IMG/VR virus record: IMGVR_UViG_3300027754_000065
Location: 22,815-86,814 of that record
Direction: 5' to 3' (one strand)
From: a virus
DNA: 64,000 bases
Shown here: positions 969 through 55,112 of the stretch, in pieces
How positions within the stretch are numbered: position 1 is the first letter of the stretch
Layout of the letters: each line of letters opens with the position of its first letter
Translations under genes and position numbers: made by a program
Notes under the pieces: model-generated
What the model was told of the DNA's origin: nothing
The model's database searches: none
The model's input: only the letters and a program-made list of their open reading frames with translations

Positions 969-1661
969 TTACCATGCTCTACATGACCAATATCTAGCTT
1001 TCCAACGTGGTCCAGGGTTTTCACAACGATGACGGGCTCTAAATGATTTTCTGCGTCCGGGTATATTCTTTTTAATACGCATGTTTTTGTCACCAAAGTT
1101 AACTTTGACAACATTACCCTTTGGACCCTTTACATAGACTTTAGACTTGGCTACATCACCCTGCATTGGTTTACCTAATGGAACTTCACGGCCCTGATAT
1201 TTGGCCTCATCCATTTCATCTTCACCCATTTTAAATGATCCCGCACTAGAAGCATCCGACCCTGAACCTAGTACCATACCTTCTTGATACATATCGTCAT
1301 CATAGGCTTTTTGATCTGCCTGATCCGCATAATATGCTTCTGCATCATCGCTGTCTTGTGCGCGGTCCCATGCTTCTGCGTCATCTACTGCATCATAGTA
1401 ATCTTGATCACTATCATAACGATGTGGATTTGTAGATGGTCTGAAACGATTAGGAGCCTCACTTAATAGTTTTTTACTAGTAAGTAATTTAAATGTTTCT
1501 TCATCGGCTTCAAGTACTATCCCGTCTTTTGTAAATCCGATTACTCCGGTTTCTATTACAAAGTCTTCGGATAATTCAATATCAAAACTGTCATGAAGCT
1601 CAACATTGTCCTGCTCACTTAGTTCTTCTACAATGTTTAATAAATTTCTAAAGTCGCTCAT
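969..1661 (-). CDS. Acidic protein with capsid-targeting-like N-terminus and Cys-Trp tail
   Basis: 230 residues. The N-terminus (MSDFRNLLNIVEELSE) is hydrophobic/acidic and ends in L-S-E, like T4 head-targeting peptides. Residues ~75-150 are extremely acidic and rich in Asp, Tyr and Ala. The C-terminus is basic and carries an RHRCENPGPRWKARYWSC motif. Small Cys/Trp modules of this general type also occur in the large protein at 51474-53984. It sits immediately downstream of the HAD phosphatase (stop and start share base 1661). Head association is inferred from the N-terminus; no enzymatic motif is seen. Confidence 0.65.
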   Translation of the reverse strand: MSDFRNLLNIVEELSEQDNVELHDSFDIELSEDFVIETGVIGFTKDGIVLEADEETFKLLTSKKLLSEAPNRFRPSTNPHRYDSDQDYYDAVDDAEAWDRAQDSDDAEAYYADQADQKAYDDDMYQEGMVLGSGSDASSAGSFKMGEDEMDEAKYQGREVPLGKPMQGDVAKSKVYVKGPKGNVVKVNFGDKNMRIKKNIPGRRKSFRARHRCENPGPRWKARYWSCRAW

Positions 1662-2287
1662 TATATTCTCCGCATGTTTTCGTTGGTTCTCTGATACTCT
1701 CCTGCTTTACCATCTAAACTCACACTCCAAGCGTAAAACTTAGTATCAGGGTATTCTTTTTTAAGTGTGACAAAACTATCTAAATTTGGAATAGAATCAT
1801 CATACATAATCGCTTTGCTATAGTTACCGCTATCTAATAACTTTCTAATAATAATCTTTTTCTTTTCGTCAATCTTTATATTATCTTTATTATTTCCTGC
1901 ACGGTAGACATGTACTTTATTCATATCTACCCCATATTTTCTAAATGTATCTAAAAACAATTCTTTATCATCAAAATCTGACCTAGCAGTTACCATAACA
2001 ACTTTATTACCTGTAGCAATATCTTGTTTAAGTTGATCCATCATAGGAATAATTGGCTTAGCATTGTCAAAGAATTCTTTAGCATCAGTGAAATCTCCAA
2101 AATCAAACTTTTCACCGGGTTTCAATTTATAATGTGTAAACTCGTGGCTGTTTAGGCTACGAACTATTTTACCATCTTTGATAACATGGACTTTAGTTTG
2201 GGTATGCACAAGAGTATCGTCAATATCAAATATTACTAATTTTGATACATCATCTACATATTCTTTTAATATTTCAATTATCTTCAT
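1661..2287 (-). CDS. HAD-superfamily phosphatase
   Basis: 208 residues. HAD motif I is DIDDTLVHT (D21, D23), motif II is VTAR with T100, a Lys lies near residues 139-144, and motif IV is MYDDS (D163, D164), so the catalytic set looks complete. Relatives include the 3'-phosphatase domain of polynucleotide kinases and phage nucleotidases; the substrate cannot be told here. The first nine residues (MKIIEILKE) match the hydrophobic-x-Glu N-termini of the putative head-cargo proteins and precede the HAD core. The start overlaps the stop of 2284-2637 by four bases. Confidence 0.8.
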   Translation of the reverse strand: MKIIEILKEYVDDVSKLVIFDIDDTLVHTQTKVHVIKDGKIVRSLNSHEFTHYKLKPGEKFDFGDFTDAKEFFDNAKPIIPMMDQLKQDIATGNKVVMVTARSDFDDKELFLDTFRKYGVDMNKVHVYRAGNNKDNIKIDEKKKIIIRKLLDSGNYSKAIMYDDSIPNLDSFVTLKKEYPDTKFYAWSVSLDGKAGEYQRTNENMRRI

Positions 2288-2637
2288 TGGTCAGTCTCAG
2301 ATGTATTATTTATATCTTGTTTATTGAGTTTCTGTTTACCTAAGATTAATTCTGTTGGTTTTTTATTAATTAGTGTATGTGCAATATGATGTTCAGTATC
2401 CAATGCTGATTTTCGTAGTTGAGTTACTGTTTGAACTTTTTGATCTAACCTGATTAAATCATTATCTAATACACGAATTCTATCAATTAAAGCCACTAGT
2501 GTAGCACTTGCTTCACTAAGAACCGGTTTAATTTCTTTAGTCGCCCATGACCAAACATAGTAAGTCATGCCACCTAATCCTACTGCTGCTACAATAGGAA
2601 ATCCAAATCTATTAACCAAATCACTAATATTTTCCAT
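2284..2637 (-). CDS. Small membrane-anchored coiled-coil protein (holin-like candidate)
   Basis: 117 residues: a short amphipathic N-terminus, one membrane segment at about residues 12-32 (FPIVAAVGLGGMTYYVWSW), then a long heptad-like helix and a polar tail. It is a diverged paralogue of the next gene upstream, sharing the order 'RFGFPI / ELGFPI', membrane segment, helix. Size, topology and tandem arrangement fit phage holin or spanin-like proteins, but there is no diagnostic motif and no lysozyme gene nearby. Confidence 0.6.
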   Translation of the reverse strand: MENISDLVNRFGFPIVAAVGLGGMTYYVWSWATKEIKPVLSEASATLVALIDRIRVLDNDLIRLDQKVQTVTQLRKSALDTEHHIAHTLINKKPTELILGKQKLNKQDINNTSETDQ

Positions 2638-3757: not shown

Positions 3758-3951
3758 AGAATAAAGTTTATTTGATCAGATTGGTCTACAAAATGAAATT
3801 TATATAAGCCAGGTTTTTCACCTGATGGTGATACCATATGCCAGCCCCATTTGTCTTTGCAATTCGTTTTACACCATTCTAATAGTGGATTTAAAGAACC
3901 ATATGGTACAGTAATATCGGTTCTGAATGCATATTCAGTAACGGTTATCAT
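3745..3951 (-). CDS. Small conserved protein of unknown function
   Basis: 68 residues with two Cys and a [10 protein letters not shown] motif echoed in the downstream gene. The ATG overlaps the ferredoxin stop (3948-3951), so it is translated from the ferredoxin transcript. No function can be assigned. Confidence 0.55.
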
Positions 3952-4274
3952 TCTTCAAGTAAATTAATTTTATTAGGCTTGTCTTTCCATTCTTCTGCAT
4001 CTGGTGGAGGATCTTTTCGTTTAGTAATGCTAGGCCATTTTTCTGCAAGTCTTGTATTAAGGTCGTACCAAAACTTTACATTTTCTAAATTCTTATCAGT
4101 ATCCTCTACAATTGCGGAAACAGGGCACTCGGGTATGCATACGCCACAGTCAATACATTCATCAGGATTGATTACAAGAAAATTAGGACCTTCGTAAAAA
4201 CAATCTACAGGACAAACAGTAACACAATCTGTATGTTTGCATTTGATACAATTTTCAGTTACAAGGTGAGTCAT
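3948..4274 (-). CDS. fdxA: 7Fe ferredoxin, FdxA type
   Basis: 108 residues, the usual full length for bacterial [3Fe-4S][4Fe-4S] ferredoxins. Cluster ligands are visible as C9-x2-C12-x4-C17-x3-C21-P and C40-x2-C43-x2-C46-x3-C50-P, with the characteristic [22 protein letters not shown] core. It is a low-potential electron carrier in the cytoplasm. Inference: in this phage it could feed the radical-SAM enzyme QueE encoded at 34.9 kb, but nothing local proves the partner. It overlaps both neighbours by four bases, so it sits inside a phage operon and is not a stray host fragment. Confidence 0.9.
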
Positions 4275-9212: not shown

Positions 9213-10786
9213 CGTTTTTTACGCCCAACATCTCCTGATGGTTTAGGTTCTTTTGGCTCTCTTCTTTTTGGATTAACAATATCCATTGATGATGTAGACA
9301 AATCGGATACCGTACCTATAACACCATCATCAGGTTCGACGCCTGCCCCTAGTTCATCAGGCTCTTCCAAATCAGTTTTAGGTGCTGTATTGGCTAATTT
9401 AAAACTGAATCCACCTTTAGTTGGATCAGTTCCTCCTGATTTAGATTCTAATGTAATTTTTCCTTCAAGTTTAGCAGGCCATTGTGTAGCAAAGCTCATT
9501 ATTCTACTCTTAGGATCAAAGTCTGCGTATTGCTGAATGAAGTTCATATCTAAAATGGATAATACCACATCTTGGAATTCAGGAATAGCTTGGCCTTCGT
9601 TTACTGCATTCATCACTGCTAATTTAACTGCATGAGTTAACTTTCCACCGTCGCTACTTGGTTTTTGAAATTTAATGTCATTAAAAAATATATCATAGCC
9701 TGGCATCTTACCTGGATAAGAATTAGGCCTAGATGGCTGCACATTTTTTTTAAAATCTTCGATGCTTTGTTTTACATCTTTTGTAATTTTATTAACATCC
9801 CACGGTAACACTGATTTAAATTTCTGCGGGATAGATTCGGGTGCTACTTCATTTAATAAATTCATAGCAGCAAAGACGGAGCTAATAGTTCTAGGTGATG
9901 GTAAAGATATTTTAGCGGGAACCTTTTTAGTGCCATTATCACATAAATCAATGAAACCTACTGCACCAAGATAATCAGGATTATTTCTAATTTCATCAGG
10001 TACCTTTAATCCACTTACACTTGGAGGAGCACCGCCACCTTGACCTTTACTTGAAATATTAATTTTGTGATTTGTTTTATCGTTAGAAATGCTGGCATAG
10101 CTATCGGCTATGTTAGTATTAGCTTTACCTGGAAAATTAATAATTAACTCAGATACATCACTTCCTAGCCATTCAGTAAAACCCTTCTTTCTAGGGAAAC
10201 GGGAAGTACCCGATACTAGTGCCAACACACCTAAATACTCACCTGCGTAGTCAACAATACTATCTTTAATCTTGGAAGGAACATCTTTGGAGATAACTGG
10301 GTTCCCACCATTCATAATAGTTTCAGCCATTTCAATGACTAATCTTCCATAATCAGTAGATTGCAGCACACTGTTATTAATAATTGTTTCTCCTAATTGA
10401 CTAGCAGGAATGTCTTTGTCAGTGATTTTAATCTGAGAAGGTTTTAATAAAGCTGATTCTTTACCAGTTTCTTCACCCTCTTCACCTGTTTTAGCCTGTC
10501 CTCCTAAATCAGAGGTTTTTAACAATTGACTTAATAGAATTTGCCTACCATCTTCTAATTTAATTTTAAGAGTACCTGAAAATTTGCCATTATCATATAA
10601 TTGTTGGAAACGGTCTGCTTCGGAAGGGTCAGCAATCACCGATTCTTGATCAATAGTATAAAACGGCTGTTGATTAGCAATCATTGATATGAATTTTTCA
10701 AATCTACCGGTCCGATTTATAATCTCCGATGCACTCAGAGTGCTAGCTTCAGATAGGGTTTGGATGAGGTTTAGTAAATCACGCAT
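9209..10786 (-). CDS. Large protein with capsid-targeting-like N-terminus
   Basis: 525 residues; no enzyme motif recognised. The N-terminus MRDLLNLIQTLSE followed by Ala gives a hydrophobic-x-Glu-Ala site like those cut by T4 gp21. The middle is mixed alpha/beta with SELIINFPGKAN and Gly/Pro linkers, and the last ~70 residues are disordered and end in a basic KPSGDVGRKKR tail. This suggests a virion or head-interior protein. No Shine-Dalgarno is present; an AATAAATA box at 10794-10801 is so close that the mRNA would have about a two-base leader. Confidence 0.65.
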   Translation of the reverse strand: MRDLLNLIQTLSEASTLSASEIINRTGRFEKFISMIANQQPFYTIDQESVIADPSEADRFQQLYDNGKFSGTLKIKLEDGRQILLSQLLKTSDLGGQAKTGEEGEETGKESALLKPSQIKITDKDIPASQLGETIINNSVLQSTDYGRLVIEMAETIMNGGNPVISKDVPSKIKDSIVDYAGEYLGVLALVSGTSRFPRKKGFTEWLGSDVSELIINFPGKANTNIADSYASISNDKTNHKINISSKGQGGGAPPSVSGLKVPDEIRNNPDYLGAVGFIDLCDNGTKKVPAKISLPSPRTISSVFAAMNLLNEVAPESIPQKFKSVLPWDVNKITKDVKQSIEDFKKNVQPSRPNSYPGKMPGYDIFFNDIKFQKPSSDGGKLTHAVKLAVMNAVNEGQAIPEFQDVVLSILDMNFIQQYADFDPKSRIMSFATQWPAKLEGKITLESKSGGTDPTKGGFSFKLANTAPKTDLEEPDELGAGVEPDDGVIGTVSDLSTSSMDIVNPKRREPKEPKPSGDVGRKKR

Positions 10787-17379: not shown

Positions 17380-17775
17380 TTAAATTCCTTTTAATGCTTT
17401 TAACAATGCCCGAGCAACTACTCGGTCTTTTTCTTTCTCTTCTTCAGGAAGTTGTGCATAACTCTGTTGTGCCAACTTATACCGTTTCAATTTCTTTTCA
17501 TCGGGTGTAGGAGTGTCTAGATCCAACTCACCGTTGTAATCTGCCATGGCAGTAATATTCCAACCATCGTGAATAGCATCGGCAATAACATCAACATCGG
17601 TAGCACCTTGTTGGATAAGTTTCAGTGCCGCTTTTGCTGATTCTAAATTAGCGAGCCATCCAAAGTTCTTGCCAGGAGTACTTCGTCCATAATGATAAAC
17701 ATCATCAAGTGCTTTATCACTAATGGTTGCTAATTGAATAAGGTCGAGTGATTCTGATAATTCGCTAATTTTCAT
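17380..17775 (-). CDS. Protein with RyR-like C-terminal segment and capsid-targeting-like N-terminus
   Basis: 131 residues. N-terminus MKISELSE fits the head-cargo pattern. From ~65, ADAIHDGWNITAM ... KLKRYKLAQQSYAQLPEEEKEKDR resembles the RyR domain consensus (IHexW ... yxxLpexeKexDR), found in phage and bacterial proteins acting around nucleotide signals. The RyR reading is tentative. The C-terminal Val-Ala-Arg helix closes the domain. The ATG overlaps the upstream stop. Confidence 0.55.
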   Translation of the reverse strand: MKISELSESLDLIQLATISDKALDDVYHYGRSTPGKNFGWLANLESAKAALKLIQQGATDVDVIADAIHDGWNITAMADYNGELDLDTPTPDEKKLKRYKLAQQSYAQLPEEEKEKDRVVARALLKALKGI

Positions 17776-29813: not shown

Positions 29814-31415
29814 ATGAATATTAAAGAATTATTTGAGGGAGTTGAACCAGAATTACCAGGTGCTCCTGAAGGTATCCAAATAATGACCCCTCAGCAATTT
29901 ATTGCTAAATCCGCACAAGGTGAGGAACCTGAACCCGAACAGGAAGTAGATGAAGATTTCAAGATGAAATCTGATTTTAGTAAAGAAACCGATGATGCTG
30001 TAGCAGACTTTTTAAATAAAGGTGGAAAGATTACACAATTACCGCCAAATCGTGTAAGAGTAAAACCTGGTCAAAGTTTAGCCAGTAAGCACATTGGTAG
30101 TAGAAGCGAAACCGGAAGAATAATAGGTAAAGATAGAAAAGTTTACGGAAATAAACCCGTAGTTAATGTGTCGGAAAGCAAGATGGCTGAGTTAGACATG
30201 GACCTTGATGATCCTGAATTATCTGATCGAGAATTTGAAAAAATATATGGCATGTCTAGAAGAGAAGCTAGAGAAGAATTTTCACAAACCAATAAATGGG
30301 ATTTTCCTGATGTTAGAGATCCTAACAAAAAACTACACGAACAAGGTGTGGCGGAAGCAACAGCACTACCTGCTAGCACCCGTGAATTAAAAGGTCAAGA
30401 GTTAACAGATTATCTAGACCGTATTCGTAATCAAGAAAAGAAGAAAACAGACAAATATAATTTACCTTATGTCCATCGTAGTTCAGTAGTTGGATACTAT
30501 AATGCTGACGGTAAAAAATATAATACTGACGCTATTAAAGCAGGGTTAAAGGAAAGACCAAAATCACTTCTTAAAAAGAATGAGAAGATGAAGCATAGTG
30601 ATGGAGCACAAGAACAATTTTTTAACATTGGATTTGCTGCTCTAGTTGGTATCGCACTAGATGAAAATACAAATGAGTTAATTGTTGTTAATACATGTCC
30701 AGGTGCTGGTAGTTGTAAAGTAGATTGCTTTGCTATGAAGGGCGGTAAAGTTCAATTCGCTGGTCCGTGGTTAAGCGATGGTCGTATACTTACATATCTA
30801 CTAAATCATCCTGATGAGTTCTTTGAACAACTAACACAAGAAATTAGTAAAGAAGAAGCAAAGGGTAAAAAAGGTGGTTATTCAGTAAGTATTCGTTGGC
30901 ATGATGCTGGAGACTTCTTTAGCCCTGAGTATATGGACATGGCATTTGACCTTGCAAACTCATTACCTGATGTTAAGTTTTATGCTTATACTAAAGTAGC
31001 AAAGGCTGCAATGGCTAGTAAGCCTAGCAACTTTATTATTAATTGGAGTGAAGGCGCAAGTACTAGCCAAGAAAAACAAATTAAGAGAAATGATCCAAAC
31101 TTAGACACAACTAAGAATAGTCGTATCGTTCCTAGTAGTTTGTTTTATGACCTATTAGTTAAGGATTCTAAAAAGAATTTAGTTAAAGGACCTGAAGGTC
31201 AATGGCAAGTAATACCTGATGAATTACCTGAACTAAAACAGCGCCTCGCCGATAAGTATGGTATAAGCAAAAATAGTATTCTAAGTTATGATGAATGGAA
31301 TACTAAGGGTAAAAATAATAAATCCATGAAGTGGAATGTTATTGTTGCCCCCGGGGAGCCTGATTTAACGGCAAATGACCCTGGTGTATTAGGCACTCTA
31401 TTATTGAAGCATTAA
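29814..31415 (+). CDS. GP88-domain protein with capsid-targeting-like N-terminus
   Basis: 533 residues. MNIKELFE followed by Gly is the head-cargo-type N-terminus. Residues ~10-180 are a linker with SESKMAE (to 126) and HEQGVAE (to 181), both hydrophobic-x-Glu sites. From ~182 a GP88-type domain follows: VVNTCPGAGSCKVDCFAMKGG, SIRWHDAGDFFSPEYM and KFYAYTKVAKAAM, with three Cys, His, Asp and Lys likely forming an active or metal site. The function of GP88 is unknown. Stop and next start share one base, so it is an operon with 31415-32773. Confidence 0.75.
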   Translation: MNIKELFEGVEPELPGAPEGIQIMTPQQFIAKSAQGEEPEPEQEVDEDFKMKSDFSKETDDAVADFLNKGGKITQLPPNRVRVKPGQSLASKHIGSRSETGRIIGKDRKVYGNKPVVNVSESKMAELDMDLDDPELSDREFEKIYGMSRREAREEFSQTNKWDFPDVRDPNKKLHEQGVAEATALPASTRELKGQELTDYLDRIRNQEKKKTDKYNLPYVHRSSVVGYYNADGKKYNTDAIKAGLKERPKSLLKKNEKMKHSDGAQEQFFNIGFAALVGIALDENTNELIVVNTCPGAGSCKVDCFAMKGGKVQFAGPWLSDGRILTYLLNHPDEFFEQLTQEISKEEAKGKKGGYSVSIRWHDAGDFFSPEYMDMAFDLANSLPDVKFYAYTKVAKAAMASKPSNFIINWSEGASTSQEKQIKRNDPNLDTTKNSRIVPSSLFYDLLVKDSKKNLVKGPEGQWQVIPDELPELKQRLADKYGISKNSILSYDEWNTKGKNNKSMKWNVIVAPGEPDLTANDPGVLGTLLLKH

Positions 31416-32773
31416 TGCGTATTAAAGAGTTATTAGAATCAGTTCAAGTACCCACCTATCTATATAAGTGGGTAGAAGGAAATCAATTTCAAAAGTATAT
31501 TGATTCTAAAAAATTACCAGTGAAAAGAGGTTATGCTCACTATATAGAATCAGAAGGGAAAATGATACCCGGTAATAGTTTTACTGATAAAGAACATATT
31601 AGTAGATGGACAGGAGATACATTAATTAGAATTAATGCTAGTAAAATATCTAATAAAATATATCCAATACCAGGACATAAAACTTTTATGCGAACAAAGG
31701 GTATGACTAGTGCTAACTATGATCCTAATGCGTGGAAGTATGAATCTGATGATATTGATGAGTATTGGATAGCAGGACCATTAGATTTATCAAGTGCAGA
31801 GATTGTCAAGCCATCAGAAAAAAATATAACAGAAAATACAGACAATAAACCAACTATTGGCATCAATGTCAGAAGTGATGGCAATACTGACTATGCTAGT
31901 TTAATTGTTGACGGCAAAAAGAAATACGAATCTAGAAAAACTGACAGTCTTAGACCATATGTTGGTAGAACGGTTGGTATTGTTAGAACTGGTAATGGCC
32001 CTGCAGTTGCGATTGGTCAAGTAACTATTGGGGAACCAATAGTAGTAGATGCTGAAAAGTTTGATAAACTTAGAAAACAACATCTAGTTCCACCGAGAAG
32101 TCTGTTTGATATCGGAGCCACCGATACCAAATACTTGTATCCAATGATTAACCCAGTTAGGTGGGATGAAGAGAAATTAATAAAGAATAAAGGTATCGTT
32201 GCTAGAAAAATTGAAGAGCAAGAATTAACCGAGTTTGACTATAATAAACATGTCAACATGCTTAATGATTATATGAATAAATTAGGCTATAGTTATATCG
32301 GTCATGGTACAGACGCACATGTTTTTGCTAAAGAAGAAGGTCCAGTAATTAAAGTATTAATACCTGAGAATGGCGATATCTCTACCGCTAAAAATCCATT
32401 CTTAGCATTTCTTAATTATTGCGAGAAAAATGCTAATAACCCACACTTACCTAAGTTTATAGAAACTACTAAACAACCAATTCAATTGGGAGTTGAAAAG
32501 TTTGATCAGGTAGTTATGGAACGATTAGAAGAATTAGATCCTGACTATGATGAAATGATTATAGATATGATGTATAGTATTGACGAAGGCAGTCCATTAG
32601 ATCCGCAATATCGTCAATATACTAATTTCTATAAAACACTTAAATCAGTTACAGCAACCGGTACTAAATTAGGATTTAGTAATGATATTATCGCACATGA
32701 TTATAGCAATGTAATGCAGAGAGATGATACTCTAGTAATTGCTGATCCTTGGGTCAGTGCAGGTTTAAAGTAA
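31415..32773 (+). CDS. Three-module protein: ART-like?, ASCH and kinase-like domains
   Basis: 452 residues. N-terminus MRIKELLE. Module 1 (~12-138): TYLYKWVEG ... GNSFTDKEHISRW ... DEYWIAGPLDLSS, loosely like ADP-ribosyltransferase folds (weak). Module 2 (~146-265): ASCH/PUA-like with VDGKKKYESRK and VAIGQVTIGE. Module 3 (~275-452): kinase-like with a Gly loop (GHGTDAHVFAKEE), VIKV Lys313, HDYSNVM (429-434 region) and DPW at 444-446 in the DFG position. Modules are separated at NITE140 and ELTE273. A multi-effector protein with T4 Alt-like packaging is inferred. Confidence 0.65.
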   Translation: MRIKELLESVQVPTYLYKWVEGNQFQKYIDSKKLPVKRGYAHYIESEGKMIPGNSFTDKEHISRWTGDTLIRINASKISNKIYPIPGHKTFMRTKGMTSANYDPNAWKYESDDIDEYWIAGPLDLSSAEIVKPSEKNITENTDNKPTIGINVRSDGNTDYASLIVDGKKKYESRKTDSLRPYVGRTVGIVRTGNGPAVAIGQVTIGEPIVVDAEKFDKLRKQHLVPPRSLFDIGATDTKYLYPMINPVRWDEEKLIKNKGIVARKIEEQELTEFDYNKHVNMLNDYMNKLGYSYIGHGTDAHVFAKEEGPVIKVLIPENGDISTAKNPFLAFLNYCEKNANNPHLPKFIETTKQPIQLGVEKFDQVVMERLEELDPDYDEMIIDMMYSIDEGSPLDPQYRQYTNFYKTLKSVTATGTKLGFSNDIIAHDYSNVMQRDDTLVIADPWVSAGLK

Positions 32774-47014: not shown

Positions 47015-47020
47015 CTGTGT

Positions 47021-47049
47021 ATGATAACACAAGATGACTTAAAGATCAA
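47021..47049 (-). promoter_or_regulatory. Sigma-70-like promoter for tilS-like gene
   Basis: TTGATC (47044-47049), 17-base spacer, TATCAT (47021-47026). Confidence 0.45.
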
Positions 47050-47443
47050 GTATCATTACAGGGTTATTACCCGCCGTACCCACTACTTCAAACCCAAAAC
47101 CCTCATACCATTTTGTTAAATCAAATGGGTTATCTTCGTCGGTATCTGAGATTAATATAATGGCTTCTGCGCCGTTATTAGCAGCATCATCAATTGCGTT
47201 GCTTACTAAATCATTACCAATGCCTTGACCACGATAATCATCATCTACATACATGTTTCTTATTAACCCCAAAGTTTTATACCGTTTTGCGATATTGTCT
47301 ATTAACTCAGGTGTTGCACCTTGACTTTGTAAGTAGTTATTAATATTGGGTTTATCTGTAGACATAACATACCCTTCTAACGAACCACCTTCGGTATGTT
47401 GTGTGATTGATTTCTGTTCGGTAATAAATTCAAAATGTCTCAT
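47039..47443 (-). CDS. GNAT acetyltransferase with capsid-targeting-like N-terminus
   Basis: 134 residues. GNAT motif A: LGLIRNMYVDDDYRGQGIGNDLVSNAI, with RGQGIG as the acetyl-CoA pyrophosphate loop; motif B WYEGFGFEVVG. N-terminus MRHFEFITE is nearly identical in pattern to T4 internal protein targeting peptides (MK-x-x-x-EFI-x-E). Substrate unknown; if packaged it could modify host proteins on entry. Overlaps the metallopeptidase gene by four bases. Confidence 0.8.
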   Translation of the reverse strand: MRHFEFITEQKSITQHTEGGSLEGYVMSTDKPNINNYLQSQGATPELIDNIAKRYKTLGLIRNMYVDDDYRGQGIGNDLVSNAIDDAANNGAEAIILISDTDEDNPFDLTKWYEGFGFEVVGTAGNNPVMILDL

Positions 47444-48015
47444 TGGAAAATATGGTGATTCTTTTCACCGTATATCTTAATATACTTGCCAGCTAAACAA
47501 TCTGCCATGACTTCTATTGGGCTGCCAGGGTAACTAGATCCCGGTTTAATCATATTCAATTCACCTTGTCTGACATGAACCAATTCGTGAAATACCGTTC
47601 TTAGTATGTCAACCAAATTACGGTTTTTAGCATATACCCAAACACTGTTATCACCATCAGTATGGCTACCAGTATGATGATTAGTTTGTGCTTCTTCAGT
47701 ATCCATGCTTAGTTCAATTTTGGGAGTGGTTTGTAAATTCAACTTTTTAGCAGCCCAATCTACAAACTTTTCTACTTCTTGTTCTAAATCACATTCAACA
47801 TCAGATTCGTCTAATTTTCCTTTAACCCAACTATCAGGACTACGATTAAATTTTTTCACAAATAAATCATTCAATGCATCACTACTAAGTTCATGCTTTT
47901 GTGCAATTATCCGCATTAATTTATCAATGGTATTATAGTTGTGTTTGGATAGGCCAGGGAGTTTTTTATATAACTCCATAACCGCAGTTTCACCAACGAA
48001 TGATTCAGTTATCAT
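47440..48015 (-). CDS. HExxH metallopeptidase-like protein
   Basis: 191 residues. FHELVHVRQGEL gives HExxH, with a downstream Glu (GSPIEVMADCLAGKYIK) as probable third zinc ligand, as in gluzincin-type peptidases. The N-terminal ~90 residues are helical with an acidic segment. The start MITESFVGE fits the cargo pattern. No signal peptide or membrane anchor. Operon with two neighbours in the cargo block. Confidence 0.75.
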   Translation of the reverse strand: MITESFVGETAVMELYKKLPGLSKHNYNTIDKLMRIIAQKHELSSDALNDLFVKKFNRSPDSWVKGKLDESDVECDLEQEVEKFVDWAAKKLNLQTTPKIELSMDTEEAQTNHHTGSHTDGDNSVWVYAKNRNLVDILRTVFHELVHVRQGELNMIKPGSSYPGSPIEVMADCLAGKYIKIYGEKNHHIFQ

Positions 48016-48473: not shown

Positions 48474-50204
48474 TTATCCATTTACCACATGACGGAGAAC
48501 AAACCTATTAGGATCTAGCGAACTAGCACTATTTCTAGCCATGCGGCGATAATCATCTAAACGACTCAACGCGGCTTCATCATCGTATGCCTGAAAAAGT
48601 TCATATTCTTCACCAGTTCTACTGTCATAAATTTGATATTCAGGCATCCTACTTGGTGGTTGACCAAATGCAGGTTCAGCAGGGCCAGCACTTACTTTTG
48701 CTTGAATAGGCTGAATAGGTTTTTGTATACCTCTTGCTCTTTTAAGTAAAGTTATTAAGTCTTGTTTCTGTAATTGTCCAGATGAATACTTGGCAAAAAC
48801 ATCAAGTGCATCGCCTTTAGTTGTAGGTTTTAATAATTTATATAATTTTTTAAGATATTCTGTACGATATTTTTGTGGGTCACAAGCGGCATCTAATGCT
48901 ACTACAAATCTTAATAGTGTATTTTCTAATTTAGGTATATCTTCATTTAACCAATCGCCACCTGGGCTGCGAAATTCAATATAACCCTCTTTAGTATTAA
49001 TACTAACATATTTGCTAGTATTTCCACTATGAATAAGTTTTGCTGCCTCTACACTTAAACCCTTTCTCATTTCATCAAAAAAGGTAAGTAACTCCGGTTC
49101 ACTTTGCATATAAGTGGCTCTAGACTGTAAACTACTCATTGCACTTTTTGCGAAACTATTTGCTGAACGACCAAATTGGTCTAATACATATTCATCACCT
49201 AATAATAGCGCAAGTTTTACATAGTCTAATTTTTCACGGCTGCACCCAGGTACACTTACATTCATGTGTAAACCTGTACTTCTATTAGTATAACAAATAT
49301 TTGTTCTAGCCCATTGAACTACTTCATTTAAACTATTGATCATTTCATCTAAGGGCAATGGATTACTTACAAATTCTAAACCTGAATCACTGGGTTCTTT
49401 CTTTGATGTAAGACTACCATCTGGCTCTATAGTGTAAGTATCATTTGGTTTACTACGGCCAATAGGTGTCCAATCGTTGCCTCCGCTTGACATATAATAA
49501 GAACCGTGGTAACTATCACTTACCGCTATGTTGTTAAGACCTAAGTCTGTCATAAACTGTAAAGCAACTTGTTTTATAGTTCTTTCACCTCCAACCTCTG
49601 GATATGTCCAATATGGCCAAGTAATGTCATAGCCTGATTCAATATCACTCATGAATCTAATGCCTGAATCTCTTAAAAACTCTCTTTCATTTGAGTCATC
49701 ATTCATATATTCTTCAAGCATAGATTCTCTAAAAGCCTCATCCGCTTGATCATATATTTCATTACCATGACCTTCTTCTACAGCCTTTTCAACTATTTTT
49801 TCAAGTTCATCTCTATCTTCATATTCAATATTTTCTTTTGCCCATTGATATACATGTTCGGTTGGAGAATGATCCCAATCTTCACTTATTTTTTCACTTA
49901 CCCATTCTGTATATTCTTCTTGTAATTTGCTATGTAATCTACCAACTTCAAATGGGCTATTCCACTCACCATCGGCTTCAAAAAATTCATATATTTGGTC
50001 AAGACTTCTTGCAGGTTGATCTTCATCATAATCAGGTTCTGGGCTTGAATCTTCATCTTCACCTCCTGCAACATCAGGCACATACATTTCAAATTCCATA
50101 CCTGCCATGGCACCGGTGCCTGCTGCTAACTGCTTTAATGAGCTTGGACTCATATCTATTTCGTCCAAGACTTGGGTTTCGTTTAAAAATTCTAATGCTC
50201 TCAT
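48474..50204 (-). CDS. Amidoligase-like protein with capsid-targeting-like N-terminus
   Basis: 576 residues. MRALEFLNE followed by Thr is the cargo N-terminus. GMEFEMYV (E37, E39), DGSLTSKK ... GLEFVSNPLPLDEM and NRSTGLHMNVSVPG match the order of the amidoligase/glutamine-synthetase-like superfamily (ExE, substrate Glu, His near a Gly). An acidic insertion (~50-190) interrupts the core. C-terminal ~60 residues (YQIYDSRTGEEYELFQAYDD) are a small separate module. Predicted ATP-dependent amide-bond formation; substrate unknown. Leaderless late placement. Confidence 0.6.
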   Translation of the reverse strand: MRALEFLNETQVLDEIDMSPSSLKQLAAGTGAMAGMEFEMYVPDVAGGEDEDSSPEPDYDEDQPARSLDQIYEFFEADGEWNSPFEVGRLHSKLQEEYTEWVSEKISEDWDHSPTEHVYQWAKENIEYEDRDELEKIVEKAVEEGHGNEIYDQADEAFRESMLEEYMNDDSNEREFLRDSGIRFMSDIESGYDITWPYWTYPEVGGERTIKQVALQFMTDLGLNNIAVSDSYHGSYYMSSGGNDWTPIGRSKPNDTYTIEPDGSLTSKKEPSDSGLEFVSNPLPLDEMINSLNEVVQWARTNICYTNRSTGLHMNVSVPGCSREKLDYVKLALLLGDEYVLDQFGRSANSFAKSAMSSLQSRATYMQSEPELLTFFDEMRKGLSVEAAKLIHSGNTSKYVSINTKEGYIEFRSPGGDWLNEDIPKLENTLLRFVVALDAACDPQKYRTEYLKKLYKLLKPTTKGDALDVFAKYSSGQLQKQDLITLLKRARGIQKPIQPIQAKVSAGPAEPAFGQPPSRMPEYQIYDSRTGEEYELFQAYDDEAALSRLDDYRRMARNSASSLDPNRFVLRHVVNG

Positions 50205-50209
50205 ATTAT

Positions 50210-50217
50210 TATTTAGT
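50210..50217 (-). promoter_or_regulatory. Late-type promoter box, leaderless placement
   Basis: ACTAAATA on the minus strand, five bases before the ATG at 50204; predicted start at the ATG itself. Weaker match to consensus. Confidence 0.35.
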
Positions 50218-50990
50218 TAATTACCCCAATTTGCTAACAATCCAACCTTGTATAAAAATGGAAGATTGTACACATCATTATAATAAATCTTTATTGAGTT
50301 ATTGATTGCTTTAAATTCTTTTTCACCAGCATGTACTGGGAACAAATACCAATGTTTATTAATCGCACGAGACAGTGTATTCGAAGGGCCTTTATTTACA
50401 CCTAAACTTTTTGCTCCTGCTTTTGTCATTGACTTTTCAAATTTCTTTTGAATTTTAACTAGTTCAGGATTACTATTAGCCTGTTCACTTACATTGACCC
50501 AACCCCACCCTGATATCATAACACCGGGTGTTTTACTTAAACTGATCCAATTTCTACGACCACCTACTGTTTGGCTTTCGCCTGCTATTAATTGTATTCC
50601 CTGATCTCTAAGTGCTATCTTATATAATAGATTACCGACACCCATGCCACGATATTCTTCTGCGACAGTAACGAACTCTACAGTATATGCAGGTTGTAAT
50701 GGAAAATCTTTTACTGGAGATAATACTAAGTCACCAATTATTCTATCAGTGTTATTAACTATAATAACATGATATTGACCAACGTCATCTTTTGGAATAA
50801 TACCATATCTTAAATCCTGATCATCAGGTACAGGCTTTAACTTTTTAAACATCGCACTTATTTGTGTGCTAGCCGCTCGTTCTAATTGACCGATATAATC
50901 ATCACCTTGACTGAATATTTCAGTCTGTGGTATTCTAACAATAGCATCTTGTACTATTTCTTCGTCAACCACAAATTCATTAAGTCTCAT
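50217..50990 (-). CDS. GNAT acetyltransferase with capsid-targeting-like N-terminus
   Basis: 257 residues. N-terminus MRLNEFVVDEE. GNAT core in the middle: YTVEFVTVAEEYRGMGVGNLLYKIAL (RGMGVG loop). A C-terminal ~120-residue domain (NWISLSKTPGVMISGWGWVNV ... INKHWYLFPVHAGEKEFKA) is unassigned. Stop and start shared with the dps gene at 50990. Substrate unknown. Confidence 0.75.
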   Translation of the reverse strand: MRLNEFVVDEEIVQDAIVRIPQTEIFSQGDDYIGQLERAASTQISAMFKKLKPVPDDQDLRYGIIPKDDVGQYHVIIVNNTDRIIGDLVLSPVKDFPLQPAYTVEFVTVAEEYRGMGVGNLLYKIALRDQGIQLIAGESQTVGGRRNWISLSKTPGVMISGWGWVNVSEQANSNPELVKIQKKFEKSMTKAGAKSLGVNKGPSNTLSRAINKHWYLFPVHAGEKEFKAINNSIKIYYNDVYNLPFLYKVGLLANWGN

Positions 50991-51457
50991 TACTCACGCT
51001 CAGTTTTAAGTGTGGAATTAATAAACCAAGCTTTTTTACCATACAAGTCTTGTAGTTCAGCCATGTAATTAGCAATGCCTTGTTGACGCTCATTTGTTGC
51101 TTCATCAAACATATTAACAACTAATTGGCTTAATGTGTGACAATCTTGTAATAATTCAGCAAACATTAATTGAGCACGAGGAATCTTTGTTTGGTCTTGA
51201 ATAATACTTAATTCAGCATATCTAGATAAACTGCCTGGTGTGTAATGACCTAGGATTCTAATATACTCGGCAATTGGATCTATGGTAGCATTTACATCTT
51301 CATATAATGTATTAAAGAATTCGTGATATTGTGGGAAATTACTGCCTTCAACATTCCAATGAAAGTTTTGTGACTTGATAGCAAACGCTTGTGTACTAGC
51401 TAACAGTACTTTTAAATTATCTACTAACATATCTTTGGGTATCCTTTTCTGTTCCAA
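50990..51457 (-). CDS. dps: Dps/ferritin-like DNA-protection protein
   Basis: 155 residues, full Dps length. LKVLLASTQAFAIKSQNFHWNVEGSNF-type ferroxidase region (here HWNVEG, then HEFFNTLYEDVNATIDPIAEYIRILG) supplies the inter-subunit iron site. Dodecameric Dps binds iron and DNA. In a phage it could protect or condense DNA. It is the only gene of this block without the cargo-type N-terminus apart from the secreted nuclease. Confidence 0.88.
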   Translation of the reverse strand: MEQKRIPKDMLVDNLKVLLASTQAFAIKSQNFHWNVEGSNFPQYHEFFNTLYEDVNATIDPIAEYIRILGHYTPGSLSRYAELSIIQDQTKIPRAQLMFAELLQDCHTLSQLVVNMFDEATNERQQGIANYMAELQDLYGKKAWFINSTLKTERE

Positions 51458-51473: not shown

Positions 51474-53984
51474 TCATTTCTTTTTTCCTTGGCAATGAGC
51501 CTTTTGTGAAAATCCTTTTGGATTGTTACAATTAATACTTCTCTTATACTTATTACTCCACTTCTCATCTAATTCTTCTTGTTCAGTAGTAAGAGCCATA
51601 AGTTTCTGTTCACCTTTTCTAAGAAAAGGTTTATTTTCTTGTTCATACGAACCTGGCATTGGTAAGCCTTTTGTTTCACTTATTCCTTGAAGAATTGAAC
51701 TCTCGGAAGTTTTCTTTTTAGTAGCAACATTGATTGCTTTACCACTACGCTCGGGGTTTGGATCTTCTCTACGCTTTCTAGCAGCCGCACTAGCACGACC
51801 CTTCTTACCTAAATTCTGTGCTTTACTTTGTGGTAAACATTTTGGTTTACCCTCACTATCATCTCCTCTAGCACAATCACCGCGTATCTTGCCATCAGGA
51901 CCAAATCTTACCCACTTCTCTTTGAACCATTTATGTAAGTTTTCATCAGTTTGTTCTAGACCTTCTAATATAGAACTTTCATTTTTTGTGCTATTGCCCC
52001 AGTTGCTAGCACCTTTTTTGCGACACTTTACTAATGCACCACTGGCATACGCACTGGGCCATACTTTATAACGGCTCTTAACTTTATAGTAGCAAGCATC
52101 TTTCTTTTCGTTAATCATTTCTTCACTAAACATTGGACCACCGCATTCAGGACATTGTTGGTGGTCTTCATTAGTGTTCTTCACACAGTTAGGATAGCGT
52201 TTGCCAAACATGGTCTTCATGCCTTCTTTATGATAACCTTTCCAACATGCCTCATCAAGTTCTTCTAGTGTCATTGTTTGCTCCCATACTTGACTATCTT
52301 CTCCGCGATTTTTATCCCAAAAGTGTTTACCAGCTTTGGTTTGATCACTACTGCGACGAATAGTAAATCCAAGACTCTTTACATAATCGTAAATGGTTTT
52401 AGCGATGCCTTGACCACGAAACTCTTCATCTATAGCAAGATCAGCAGGTACTAGAGTACTACCATCACGGTCAAATACTGCATAACCAGCTTGATATCCA
52501 TCTACAGATGGACGAATGATTACCTCAGCTCCATCAGCCACAACATTTAATTGTATACCACCAATGTCAACATTAGTGCCTTCCGCCATACTTTCTCCTC
52601 CGCCGCCATCACCACCGCCTTCACCAGATTCTCCACTACCATAATAGCCATAGCCCGGGAAGAAATATCTGCCTAAGGATCTTGAAGTTTTTTTGTTTTT
52701 CTTTTTTCGGCCTTCCGCCACACCTTGCTCTGTTACTGTCTTTACAATAGTTACAGTTCCTCTATCATAATCAATTAAGTCAGTGAGTCCAGGGTAACGG
52801 GATTTTAGATGTATGTCAAATCTGTTGAAATCTTCAATAGCGTCATTGTCAAATGCTTGCAGTGCCTGTGAATCTTTTGGACTAATCGTCAAATTGGCCA
52901 TCACCCAATCAGTATGGTTAGGTGCATCTTGTTCTTCATCGAGTCCTTCGTCTTGTATAGTATTCCATACACTACGGCTTACTGGTTTCCAAGTCAAGTT
53001 GGGTATCTGAGACAAATAATTTTGGTCTGAGCCTTCCGCTACACCTTGTTTACGCAATGTATGCTTTTCTTGGCGAGCATCATAATCTGCACCTAACCGT
53101 TTATAAATGCTAACAGCGGCATTATTCGTATCTGTATCTGATGTTACATCATACTGTTTACTTAAACTTTTTAACAAATCTGTATAAAGACCTTTGCCTC
53201 TTAACTCTTCATCAAACACTTGAGAATATTCAACTACTAGTGAATCACCCGCTACATCTGCCCAAACACCAGCAACAGTCTTACCAGCAGGATCAGTTAC
53301 TCTAATAAATGTGTTTACATCTATATCTGTTTTAAAAGGCACTTCACGCCCTGCTTCAAACTTCCAAGTGTAACCTGAGTCAGTTTTTCCACTAGTTGAT
53401 ATCGCAGCACCTTCAGTCACCTCTTTGTCTTCAGGCTCTTTTTTCGGCGGAGGCATAATACGGTCTAGTTCTTTTTGAAACTTTTCTCTATCTGCTTTAT
53501 TTTCAGGACTATTTTGTTGTTTTTTTAAAGCACGATTAAAACGCAATTGTGCTGGACTAGGTCCGCCCCAGTATGATTCGTTTGTTTCTTTCTCTTCAGG
53601 TTCTTTTTTTGGTTCAGGATCTTGACCTAAATACTTTTTTGCTGCTTTTAATTGTCTAACTACACGCTCAGGTTCTGTTTCTTCATTCATTCTCCAACCT
53701 CTAACTGAGTTTGGAATCATTTTTTCACCCTGACCACGCTCATTAAATCTTTCTAAATTTTTAATGACTTCTCTAATCATTGCCCCAATATCACTAGTGC
53801 CTAATTCTTCTGCACCAGCGTGAAAAGATGCAACATCCATAGCCGCATCATGTAATACATCTTCTTCGTATTTTGTACTGATATCAGGATAGCGTGATTT
53901 TAACCGTTTAACTAAAATATCAGTTAAATGTTCTTGATCAATACCTTCTAATATGTATTGAAATTTTCTTAAAGTATTGGCCAT
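51474..53984 (-). CDS. Giant modular protein with two GNAT domains and serial cleavage-like sites
   Basis: 836 residues. Order: targeting-like start (LRKFQYILE13), helical region, GNAT-1 (~192-315, EELRGKGLYTDLL), Arg-rich module, Gly-rich linker (~450-468), GNAT-2 (~470-575, EEFRGQGIAKTIY), then Cys-rich modules (ACWKGYHKEG, CPECGG, DACYYKVKSRYKVWPSAYASG, GDCARGDDSEGKPKC) and a basic Cys tail. Hydrophobic-x-Glu-Gly occurs at E13, E191, E317, E424, E468 and E674, mostly at domain borders. I infer a head-packaged polyprotein; the individual substrates are unknown. Confidence 0.7.
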   Translation of the reverse strand: MANTLRKFQYILEGIDQEHLTDILVKRLKSRYPDISTKYEEDVLHDAAMDVASFHAGAEELGTSDIGAMIREVIKNLERFNERGQGEKMIPNSVRGWRMNEETEPERVVRQLKAAKKYLGQDPEPKKEPEEKETNESYWGGPSPAQLRFNRALKKQQNSPENKADREKFQKELDRIMPPPKKEPEDKEVTEGAAISTSGKTDSGYTWKFEAGREVPFKTDIDVNTFIRVTDPAGKTVAGVWADVAGDSLVVEYSQVFDEELRGKGLYTDLLKSLSKQYDVTSDTDTNNAAVSIYKRLGADYDARQEKHTLRKQGVAEGSDQNYLSQIPNLTWKPVSRSVWNTIQDEGLDEEQDAPNHTDWVMANLTISPKDSQALQAFDNDAIEDFNRFDIHLKSRYPGLTDLIDYDRGTVTIVKTVTEQGVAEGRKKKNKKTSRSLGRYFFPGYGYYGSGESGEGGGDGGGGESMAEGTNVDIGGIQLNVVADGAEVIIRPSVDGYQAGYAVFDRDGSTLVPADLAIDEEFRGQGIAKTIYDYVKSLGFTIRRSSDQTKAGKHFWDKNRGEDSQVWEQTMTLEELDEACWKGYHKEGMKTMFGKRYPNCVKNTNEDHQQCPECGGPMFSEEMINEKKDACYYKVKSRYKVWPSAYASGALVKCRKKGASNWGNSTKNESSILEGLEQTDENLHKWFKEKWVRFGPDGKIRGDCARGDDSEGKPKCLPQSKAQNLGKKGRASAAARKRREDPNPERSGKAINVATKKKTSESSILQGISETKGLPMPGSYEQENKPFLRKGEQKLMALTTEQEELDEKWSNKYKRSINCNNPKGFSQKAHCQGKKK

Positions 53985-53993
53985 AGTATCAAA

Positions 53994-55112
53994 TTATTTA
54001 GGGTACATCGGAGCAAGACCTGGTTTGAGACCTTGCATTGATCCATCTGCCTGTTGTTTAGCATTGGGCCAACGACTCAAATAGTCTTTAAGCCAAGCTT
54101 GATATGCTTCAGCCATAGCTTCTATTTCGTCCCTAGGCAATTCATGAATGTTTGGTAATCTATTAGGATTGATAAAATCACCTTTGGCATTTACAGGAAT
54201 ACCATATTCTAGTTTATGTCCTAATGAACTTTTTGTAATTGGACCATCTTTGCGATAGTCAATTTTTCCTGCTTGTTGAGCAGCATGTTGATTTATTGCT
54301 TGTTGTCCTGCAAATTGGGCGTTTGTAAATTCTTGAGCTTGGGCTGGTGTCAATCCTGCGGGAGGCAATGACATTCCACCTGCATGAGCACCGCCCCCGC
54401 CAAAAGCAGCAGCACCAGCAAGAGCGGCGCCTGCTAGTTTGCTTTTCCAACCTTCTTCAATATCTTGTTGTTTAATCTTTTTTGCTATATGATGACCTTT
54501 GACTATCGTACTCTTTTTCAAAGGTGGTTTGTCACCTGTTGATTTCATTGCTTGTGACATACCAACAGCATATGGATTTACTTTTTTAGTAGCACTTTCA
54601 CCTGCCATACCATTACCAATAACTCCACCAGTCATTTCATTTTGTATAGCCTGATGTTCGTAATATTCACGAATAGCAGTTAGATAGTCATTAGCCTTGA
54701 TAATCTTTTCTTGTACCCACCCTTCAAGACCTTCTTCTTCGGTTCTATTTTTTAGAAGCATATAAGTTTTTTTAGCATTCTTATATGCTTGATATAAGTC
54801 ACTTAATGCCATTTCAACTTCATGGTCAGTTCTATCTTCCGCTTTTGAAATTAGTCCTGGCTTGAATCTTTTGCTTTGTCCAGGAACTATAATTAAATCA
54901 TCTTCTTCCAGTTTTGCTTCTGCTACTTTACTTTCTGAAAGAGAGTTGCTATATGGACCTTTTTTCTTACCGTTAAGTTTATCTATTGGCTTTAGACCTT
55001 TTACCTCTGGGTATCTACTTTGTGTTTCTCCCATAGGTTTAGCAACAGTGGCTACCGATCCTGAACCAGTAGCACCAGCAGACGTTTCTAAGATAATTTG
55101 ATTAATTTTCAT
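53994..55112 (-). CDS. Modular protein with capsid-targeting-like N-terminus
   Basis: 372 residues. MKINQIILE9, then SNSLSE60, SKVAE65 and QQDIEE220 as hydrophobic/acidic Glu sites. Residues ~93-155 form a helical domain (HEVEMALSDLYQAYKNAKKTYMLL ... EGWVQEKI) that recurs in T4-like phage virion proteins, and ~226-246 is a Gly/Ala-rich stretch that could cross or disturb a membrane. The C-terminus ends PGLAPMYPK. The start codon lies in the arm of an 8-base inverted repeat (55110-55157). Confidence 0.6.
   Translation of the reverse strand: MKINQIILETSAGATGSGSVATVAKPMGETQSRYPEVKGLKPIDKLNGKKKGPYSNSLSESKVAEAKLEEDDLIIVPGQSKRFKPGLISKAEDRTDHEVEMALSDLYQAYKNAKKTYMLLKNRTEEEGLEGWVQEKIIKANDYLTAIREYYEHQAIQNEMTGGVIGNGMAGESATKKVNPYAVGMSQAMKSTGDKPPLKKSTIVKGHHIAKKIKQQDIEEGWKSKLAGAALAGAAAFGGGGAHAGGMSLPPAGLTPAQAQEFTNAQFAGQQAINQHAAQQAGKIDYRKDGPITKSSLGHKLEYGIPVNAKGDFINPNRLPNIHELPRDEIEAMAEAYQAWLKDYLSRWPNAKQQADGSMQGLKPGLAPMYPK

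Follow-up and report, generated by a model that had tools for sequence, protein, structure and literature searches.

The window analysed here is a 64,000-nucleotide stretch of virus DNA, bases 22,815-86,814 of the 86,814-base IMG/VR record IMGVR_UViG_3300027754_000065. A first-pass annotation of its letters described twelve proteins with unrelated bodies whose N-termini resemble the capsid-targeting sequence (CTS, or tag) of phage T4 internal proteins, and proposed that they are packaged in the head, trimmed there and possibly ejected with the DNA. All twelve are open frames at the left ends reported (by which we name them), and an independent gene caller chooses the same start in 12 of 12. 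For the T4 internal protein IPIII, a 10-residue N-terminal stretch is enough for packaging; residues 4 and 7 count towards targeting and residues 8 and 10 towards cutting, the site cut by gp21 lying after L/I-x-E (PMC9026906); the T-even internal proteins are diverse and only their CTS is conserved (PMC3012670). The first-pass annotation mentioned neither the tagged proteins beyond the window, nor an internal linker reading QGVAE, nor a segment of 53994 resembling the major capsid protein (MCP). The putative features are given below in window coordinates, with a slash at the predicted cut; P1 is the residue ahead of it.

55086..55112, minus strand: CTS of 53994-55112, MKINQIILE/T; homologues or look-alikes start MKITHIISE (a homologue), MRFNQIVEN and MRAAEFVKE, and the MCP-like segment comes next.
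55032..55085, minus strand: MCP-like segment TSAGATGSGSVATVAKPM, directly after the CTS of 53994; the motif also finds 5 MCPs.
50178..50204, minus strand: CTS of the amidoligase-like protein 48474-50204, MRALEFLNE/T; tagged homologues at 39-59% identity.
47989..48015, minus strand: CTS of the HExxH protein 47440-48015, MITESFVGE/T; homologues are tagged.
47417..47443, minus strand: CTS of the GNAT protein 47039-47443, MRHFEFITE/Q; a homologue starts MKSFEFITE/Q.
50961..50990, minus strand: CTS-like N-terminus of the GNAT protein 50217-50990, MRLNEFVVDE; a distant relative starts MRANEFINE/G.
31415..31438, plus strand: CTS-like N-terminus of the ASCH/kinase-like protein 31415-32773, MRIKELLE/S; part of the kinase-module homologues are tagged.
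29814..29837, plus strand: CTS-like N-terminus of the GP88 protein 29814-31415, MNIKELFE/G (weak singly); a protein of contig L122 starts MNFKELHE/G with a similar continuation by eye.
30342..30359, plus strand: QGVAEA linker in 29814-31415 (CAA GGT GTG GCG GAA GCA).
53946..53984, minus strand: CTS-like N-terminus of the multi-module protein 51474-53984, MANTLRKFQYILE/G (weak); homologues start otherwise.
53031..53048, minus strand: QGVAEG linker 1 in 51474-53984, behind the first GNAT-like module (by eye); homology to relatives switches there.
52710..52727, minus strand: QGVAEG linker 2 in 51474-53984, ahead of the GNAT module detected by Pfam.
2261..2287, minus strand: CTS-like N-terminus of the HAD-like protein 1661-2287, MKIIEILKE/Y, which fits both stricter rules given below; TATAAATA lies within 120 nt upstream, and the sole relative seen, starting MRLLEVKQG, has no clear tag.
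10748..10786, minus strand: CTS-like N-terminus of 9209-10786, MRDLLNLIQTLSE/A (weak); a relative in the related genome G002 starts MRDLINILDDLLQE/A, at 46% identity.
17752..17775, minus strand: CTS-like N-terminus of the RyR-like protein 17380-17775, MKISELSE/S (weak).
1614..1661, minus strand: CTS-like N-terminus of 969-1661, MSDFRNLLNIVEELSE/Q (weak); a relative starts MRFHEMDQP, with no clear tag.

The bodies named in the annotation are borne out in part. GNAT in 47039 (Acetyltransf_7, E 1.4e-9) and GP88 in 29814 are matched, GNAT in 50217 more weakly, and the amidoligase match of 48474 is weak and barely above the cutoff. The others fall below the cutoff or were assigned by eye: Acid_phosphat_B/HAD in 1661, RyR in 17380 and ASCH in 31415 are all sub-cutoff matches, the last accompanied by a kinase-like PHROG, and the HExxH motif of 47440 was seen by eye, with no Pfam hit.

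The record matches a 335,035-base IMG/VR contig (G001) at 99.98% identity over all 86,814 bases, and on this alignment we take G001 to be the complete genome of the window's phage; the relative G002 has 340,172 bases, and its 48474 homologue is ~45% identical. The annotation had suggested a search of the rest of the genome for a gp21-type prohead protease, and one is present in G001 (Peptidase_S77, PF03420, E 6.7e-29) and likewise in G002. A PF03420 search finds no match in the 86,814-base record or in the control genomes, and its absence from the record fits a fragment that is missing the head region. When 14 gp21-type proteases are aligned with T4 gp21, one His and a pair of Ser residues are invariant in all 15 sequences. 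The G001 gene order is T4-like (portal-like gene, small proteins, protease, scaffold-like gene, MCP), the G001 head genes being named by position and the portal and MCP of the relatives by similarity to proteins of phage PA5oct. The window belongs to a jumbo T4-like phage.

How far the tag exceeds chance depends on the rule used. With a loose rule near the wording of the annotation ([LIVFM]xE, with E at residue 7-18), 42 of the 124 proteins of the record match (34%) as against 18% of internal windows, so that about half of such matches are chance. An IPIII-type rule ([FLIY] at P4, [LIVFT] at P3 and Glu at P1, about residue 8-11), for which the expectations come from internal windows and not from other N-termini, matches 22/369 proteins in G001 (6.2 expected, p 5e-7), 15/432 in G002 (6.4 expected, p 0.0025), 10/212 in the T4-like cyanophage S-CREM2 (3.5 expected, p 0.003) and 14/267 open reading frames (ORFs) in T4 (6.05 expected), eight of these 14 being annotated head, core or virion proteins; in PA5oct the 12/405 matches are not significant (7.9 expected). 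A strict T4-derived regular expression, matched by 0.19% of internal windows, finds five of the 267 T4 ORFs, namely orf 61.1, gene 24, alt, ipII and ipIII, of which four encode known head proteins; it misses ipI, and it matches 5/369 proteins in G001 and 6/432 in G002. The M[KR] rule (^M[KR].{3,6}[LIVFM].E), counted with a single simple ORF caller, matches 13/282 in G001 and 69/699 in the linker loci described below, and 4/930 in control-pattern contigs. Five of the twelve fit the IPIII-type rule (1661, 47039, 47440, 48474 and 53994) and seven the M[KR] rule (1661, 17380, 31415, 47039, 48474, 50217 and 53994); the false positives in the window are ClpP (8569) for the former and the sliding clamp (41920) for the latter. 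A genome-wide count with a profile of the twelve N-termini, as the annotation had suggested, does give 35/369 in G001 against 5.9 expected (score 7), but this profile was trained on its own targets and fails on PA5oct, where it makes no separation between genes detected in virions (93, from the notes of electrospray ionization tandem mass spectrometry, ESI-MS/MS, in the record) and the 312 others (1/93 and 6/312 at a score of at least 8). We therefore set it aside and rely on rules derived from T4 or tested elsewhere.

Diverged homologues of several of the candidates keep the tag. Those of 48474 (39-59% identity) start MRAKEFIIE, MRAIDFLIE, MRYREFELTE or MRFTEFGLITE ahead of the conserved start of the module, those of 47440 start MNTNEIIVE/S, MRYNEIIIE/T or MRASEFLNE/D, and some kinase-module homologues of 31415 start MRYHEIAQE, MRYNEITKE or MILADFLIE, others being untagged. 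Further homologues of 48474 and 47440 are fused into larger proteins, a 1447-residue G002 protein combining both modules, and some homologues are called from a different start. A codon-level scan of the viral_contigs collection for MRAxEF[hydrophobic]xE retrieves at least 120 stretches; with two regular expressions, the tagged proteins of at least 110 residues outside the G001 and G002 entries number 375 and fall into 74 similarity clusters. The 74 representatives, which were chosen by tag, share just MRxxEFxxE, with a mean column identity of 5%. Their Pfam matches are to 56 families, of which 25 are listed, each by a single member; these 25 include GNAT, an ADP-ribosyltransferase exoenzyme (ADPrib_exo_Tox), a phosphorylase (PNP_UDP_1), a class-I amidotransferase (GATase), superoxide dismutase, SLT transglycosylase, an M23 peptidase and methyltransferases. 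Thymidylate synthase in the tagged set is a likely chance member. PF03420 is present in 10 of the 11 tag-fetched contigs of at least 100 kb (G002 and L084 left out, L084 being in both the tag and linker lists), and a protease-alignment query, which recovers the known positive L162 (E 6.6e-115), finds none in 14 contigs of at least 57 kb fetched with a reversed linker pattern, a rough comparison in that three of the 14 exceed 100 kb.

Outside the window, two adjoining small proteins at L037:14969-15729 (G001:74969-75729) start MRAREFITE and MRAHEFLTE, with similar tagged ones in G002 (234156, 234527), and this G001 pair are strong cargo candidates. There are more tag-like N-termini to the left of the window (L001:4930-5559, L001:1064-1597 and L001:11284-11781; MRYHQLLVE, MHNQKFLNE and MHLGEINE). 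The L002:1901-2470 protein (record 21901-22470) is superoxide dismutase-like by eye and may start MRDIITLLEE; a TATAAATA box is found upstream of it, and its PA5oct homologue is marked ESI-MS/MS.

Less likely than not, though far from remote, is the reading that ordinary proteins with chance tags make up the greater part of the twelve, and that the cargo is confined to 48474, 47440, 47039, 53994 and 50217. The loose-rule excess of 34% over an 18% background, the fit of the clamp and ClpP to stricter rules, the relatives of 1661 and 969 lacking a clear tag and the negative profile test in PA5oct all point this way. Individually, 969, 9209, 17380, 29814 and 51474 are weak, each not distinguishable from chance. 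Against the chance reading stand the enrichment in the complete genome, the tags kept in diverged homologues and the modules that 51474 has in common with cyanophage late-region genes. The tag follows the T4 determinants above chance, as the annotation supposed, whereas its count of a dozen cargo proteins was too firm.

Protein 51474 has a GNAT module found by Pfam, a DUF5872 match just below the cutoff and another GNAT-like module by eye; its Pfam search returns no peptidase family. Proteins of contigs L008 and L010 also contain GNAT and DUF5872, and the 1447-residue G002 protein has HExxH motifs by eye. A protein of L010 carries two modules like ADP-ribosyltransferases (ARTs), with sub-cutoff matches to PARP (E 0.0049) and PTS_2-RNA (E 0.29) and a match to RNA 2'-phosphotransferase chains (E 0.018). 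Matches to modules of 51474 are present in 365 phage records, and 358 of these carry the name Synechococcus, Prochlorococcus or cyanophage; the matches among the 25 listed lie within residues 517-836. The multi-module gene of both S-SM2 and Bellamy follows a small tagged protein and is flanked by the genes for the two terminase subunits, small and large; by eye these multi-module proteins contain no QGVAE.

In the window, QGVAE followed by G or A occurs twice in 51474 and once in 29814, and such linkers are also present in dozens of proteins of related contigs. Scanning viral_contigs for CAAGGTGTNGCNGAAG yields at least 120 stretches with 155 matches among them, and in 135 of the 155 the QGVAE frame is the longest of the six open frames; the reversed-pattern control gives 120 matches, one per stretch, with all frames represented. 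At wobble positions that the pattern leaves unfixed, GTG is used at 110 and GCG at 111 of 143 sites, as against 9.5% of Val and 7.7% of Ala codons in G001; for the linker loci the corresponding shares are 19.6% and 9.5%. Outside the 14 bases fixed by the pattern, conservation is more than slight at just two bases on either side, a count from which 14 of 140 sites were removed (the ...GGSRQGVAE... family, left out of linker counts, and duplicates). On these codon and base counts, the linker is conserved at the DNA level. A fuller form of the linker found 70 stretches with one match each in a genome collection, and the idea of a general bacterial element was rejected on that result.

The linker also marks where modules change. 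Among 141 distinct sites, which still include a few KAVAE or QAVAE sites, 32 pairs have the upstream 40 residues in common, 29 the downstream 40 and 6 both, and the module changes at the linker in 49 of 55 pairs, switching being scored without a random-position control. Boundaries of high-scoring segment pairs, which are not independent, lie within 12 residues of a linker in 333 of 1953 cases as against 165 expected. In six module families the residues behind a linker recur behind a stand-alone tag: QGVAE/DWQK and MRAREFINE/DWQK; QGVAE/NFADG and MRAAEFVTE/NFADG; QGVAE/EWSQKYK and both MKTKEFTTE/GWSQKYK and a cyanophage MKSFKQFQE/SWSNKYK; QGVAE/EQHSCPHC and MNINDIITE/SQHTCPHC; QGVAE/ASGYIP and MKVSEITE/SSGHIP; and QGVAE/AFDQPY and MRAQEFIVE/AFDQPY, for which the called start is 16 residues upstream. 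A seventh, QGVAE/EKVRLD and MKFKDFRTE/EKVRLD, has the Glu with Arg at P3, and 35 of the 99 rows in the survey of such pairs have no tag, most of them KAVAE. Counted systematically, a [LIVFMT]xE faces the linker Glu (offset 0) in 23 of 50 comparisons, and no other offset between -6 and +6 has more than 7; subjects with a linker near the start or aligned outside residues 6-22 were excluded, and the comparisons are not independent, the effect being carried by the six families. The register of the linker Glu with the tag-terminal Glu leads us to read the two as one cleavage site in two settings, and on this evidence the linker proteins are candidates for polyprotein cargo that the prohead protease would cleave.

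Two look-alikes were rejected as linkers, the DQGVAE of the clamp and the KAVAE of the 45442-45702 family, an unrelated small protein. This family is common in related contigs and has no cargo role as far as seen.

An unlikely alternative is that the linker is just a recombination scar, its GVAE peptide an uncut, flexible by-product, and that the proteins act whole, like polyvalent proteins. Even the wobble positions left unfixed are conserved, the conservation is lost beyond ~18-20 bp, homology switches at the linker, and its Val at P3 deviates from L/I-x-E, all of which would suit a scar. A neutral scar does not, however, predict the Glu register with the CTS-terminal Glu in six module families, and there are tags of the same lineage with Val at P3 as well (MRAAEFVTE, MRATEFVTE).

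A motif made from the segment behind the tag of 53994 finds, within the first 70 residues, five MCPs (G001, G002, PA5oct and two contigs) and ten other proteins; past residue 70 the same motif occurs 11 times in 1.05 million residues, and the MCPs of T4 and S-CREM2 do not fit it. Each of the five MCPs has a hydrophobic-x-Glu just ahead of the segment (e.g. YLKE/NASAGSTASGNIATLN), and by analogy with T4 the MCP would be cut at that Glu. In 8 of the 10 other proteins the segment immediately follows the tag-like Glu, as in MKINQIILE/TSAGATGSGSVATVAKPM, MKVNEIME/NASAGGTSAGGVAPV and MKLRDIIVE/TTAGATASGSVASV, and one of the ten (PA5oct 127321) is marked ESI-MS/MS. Just after its tag, 53994 thus resembles the predicted mature N-terminus of the MCP.

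In S-CREM2, for which 52 virion proteins are reported by mass spectrometry (PMC10665884), the M[KR] rule matches 5/52 detected proteins and 1/160 other genes (p 0.0037); it was one of three rules tried, all written before the S-CREM2 N-termini were seen, and the other two give 0/52 against 2/160 and 5/52 against 5/160 (p 0.068). The detected and tagged proteins are an S-adenosylmethionine hydrolase (MKDFDSFLEE), ORF13 (MKDLHSFLTE), an APH-like kinase (MKRFDAFLTE) and a cytidylyltransferase (MKNFSSFLTE); the fifth match, ORF17, looks chance-like. By eye, ORF136 (MQTFSMFFSE), ORF15 (MNFSEFNE) and a Cas9-like nuclease (RFASFMAE near residue 25) are tagged outside this rule, and the IPIII-type rule matches 6/52 detected and 4/160 other proteins (p 0.016). 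The authors of that study leave contamination of the virion set possible, and in its main text the terms targeting sequence, propeptide, cleavage, signal peptide, N-terminal and internal protein do not appear (PMC10665884). In PA5oct the M[KR] rule matches 6/93 detected and 4/312 other genes (p 0.012), having been picked after PA5oct was seen; the detected set contains ribonucleotide reductase, ClpP and a clamp homologue, which makes contamination likely. Detected PA5oct homologues of tagged proteins include 126689, 130473, 242891 and the homologue of the record's superoxide-dismutase-like protein. Tests based on homologues are weak: PA5oct gives 6/56 against 1/59 (p 0.057), with the clamp among the six, and S-CREM2 gives 2/18 against 1/27. 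Virion proteomics has also been reported for Atu_ph07 (PMC6102473), where the homologue of 48474 has no clear tag, and for S-SCSM1 and S-CREM1 (PMC9602691, PMC9964418).

A distinctly improbable reading gives the tagged proteins a helper role in the core or scaffold, like that of gp67, gp68 and in part IPIII, with trimming in assembly and mostly no action on the host: the MCP-like N-terminus of 53994 and the assembly role of IPIII in T4 (PMC9026906) agree with such a function, but the bodies include GNAT, ADPrib_exo_Tox, PNP_UDP_1, GATase and methyltransferase among the 74 representatives (from the 25 listed of 56 families), and enzymes are present in S-CREM2 virions. A role of the common N-terminus in translation or folding, such as delivery to a chaperone, in place of packaging is very improbable, for although packaging in this phage is a prediction from sequence, the IPIII tag suffices for packaging in T4 (PMC9026906), the tagged enzymes of S-CREM2 are virion-associated and the tag rate in control contigs is 4/930.

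Head packaging of the tagged proteins, as the first-pass annotation proposed, is likely; the gp21-type protease, the T4-like tag, its retention in homologues and the tagged enzymes in S-CREM2 virions speak for it, and the failure of the profile to separate PA5oct proteins does not. From these observations, together with the Glu register and the shuffling at the joint, we consider it probable that a jumbo T4-like phage loads a set of tagged enzymes, part of them as QGVAE-joined polyproteins that its gp21-type protease cuts, and that the modules are ejected; for the window's phage we infer the cleavage, the packaging of these very proteins, the ejection and the host targets. A T4-type CTS at the start of each cargo protein would bind the scaffold core, and the phage's own protease would cut after the hydrophobic-x-Glu that ends the tag. 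In this phage and its relatives, some of the cargo would be polyproteins with modules joined by QGVAE[G/A/D/E], the linkers serving as further protease sites, so that one tag would import several modules that are then freed. The DNA-conserved linker would at the same time be a joint at which phages exchange modules. Once released, the GNAT acetyltransferases, the zincin-like, amidoligase-like, kinase-like and ART-like modules and the small modules rich in Cys or Lys would be ejected along with the DNA, to work on the host immediately. We give about even chances to the wider proposal that this is a widespread cassette system of T4-like environmental phages, in which an 18-20 bp coding linker is both recombination joint and protease site for a self-dismantling arsenal, and in which one family copies the mature N-terminus of the MCP, perhaps for docking on the inner shell.

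Several results weigh against packaging and linker cleavage, beside those already given with their tests. We know of no virion proteomics for the window's phage. In PA5oct the IPIII-type rule matches 3/93 detected and 9/312 other genes, and two other rules give 0/93 against 0/312 and 0/93 against 8/312. In T4 the M[KR] rule matches 7/267 ORFs, of which just ipII and ipIII are known head proteins. A TATAAATA box lies upstream of 2/13 tagged and 9/356 other G001 genes (p 0.053) and of 0/14 tagged genes in G002. The linker has Val at P3, where the T4 consensus is L/I-x-E, and 27 of the 50 linker-to-tag comparisons are out of register. Nine of the 11 linker contigs of at least 100 kb have no PF03420 match; eight of these also have no T4 portal match and one has a portal at its edge, so that most look like fragments, and some may be other phages. 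The protease-alignment query likewise finds no match in the smaller linker contigs L075, L083, L118, L121 and L158. Lastly, the predicted folds of 51474 and of one module are of low confidence and too poor for use, the model of one L010 module having a pLDDT of 42.6.

Several neighbouring genes are of note. At 8569-14231 are ClpP and ClpX genes, with ClpS-like, Hsp20-like and S21-like proteins by eye, and one PA5oct cluster comprises genes for ClpX, S21 and ClpS together with heat shock genes. A Dps/ferritin-like protein at 50990-51457 (Pfam Ferritin, E 6.8e-16) is untagged within a run of tagged genes, and a small protein at 3948-4274 has two Cys clusters and is ferredoxin-like by eye. Look-alikes of QueE, QueD, FolE and a QueC/TilS-type protein, also by eye, lie at 34931-37971 and 46421-47032, and together these genes suggest deazaguanine DNA modification. 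Left of the window, L001:3074-4869 holds tandem paralogues of 293-298 residues that are 87% identical over 254 bases. A row of large proteins, tail-fibre-like by eye, occupies 55189-63740, where G+C reaches 0.46, compared with 0.33-0.41 elsewhere in the window.

If the proposal is right, a nine-residue tag and a six-residue linker would list injected proteins from sequence for many uncultured phages, and proteins lacking an assigned function would become predicted early effectors. It would also account for the entry of enzymes into cyanophage virions, connect the T4 internal proteins with polyvalent proteins, and provide a mechanism for fast exchange of counter-defence modules among phages.

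Short conserved DNA at the joints of exchanged phage modules is familiar from mobile promoter cassettes (PeSL) and conserved boundary sequences. These joints lie between genes, whereas the QGVAE joint is coding, in frame and inside cargo genes; among the titles and abstract openings listed from the open-licence literature, two of the listings covering 10 of 13 and 12 of 56 entries, we found no mention of a QGVAE-type linker. Polyvalent proteins (PMC5512222, PMC7824862) are similar in being large phage polypeptides of several domains, ART and GNAT among their effectors; they are thought to be injected and have been compared to polyproteins (Iyer et al. 2017, PMC5512222). Their release is attributed to embedded peptidase domains, whereas here there are a tag, linkers that suit the prohead protease and a DNA-conserved joint, and the portion of PMC5512222 on which we draw names no such linker. 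Head-packaged ARTs have been widely argued for (PMC9503650), the term prohead being absent from the part of that paper used here. The ejection proteins of SPN3US offer another parallel, with a large head and ejected proteins matured by a prohead protease, gp245, some with multi-site propeptides (PMC10052503); the gp245 motif differs (Val or Ala at P4, Ser preferred at P1'), and the sections cited mention no short common tags or shuffled enzyme modules. Enzymes in T4-like virions are also represented by the kinases and NMNAT-like proteins associated with cyanophage virions (S-CREM2, PMC10665884), whose CTS-like start is noted in the present analysis. A further parallel is found in T4 IPI, IPII, IPIII and Alt, where a tag of ~10 residues that is hydrophobic at P4 and P3 and has Glu at P1 precedes bodies unrelated to one another, and where a gp21-family protease is encoded. 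The set described here, known from sequence, differs from these in being larger, in its common MRAxEF[ILV]xE form and in its often multi-module cargo with internal hydrophobic-x-Glu linkers, and what we consider new is the proposed merger of T4 internal-protein tagging with the architecture of polyvalent proteins.

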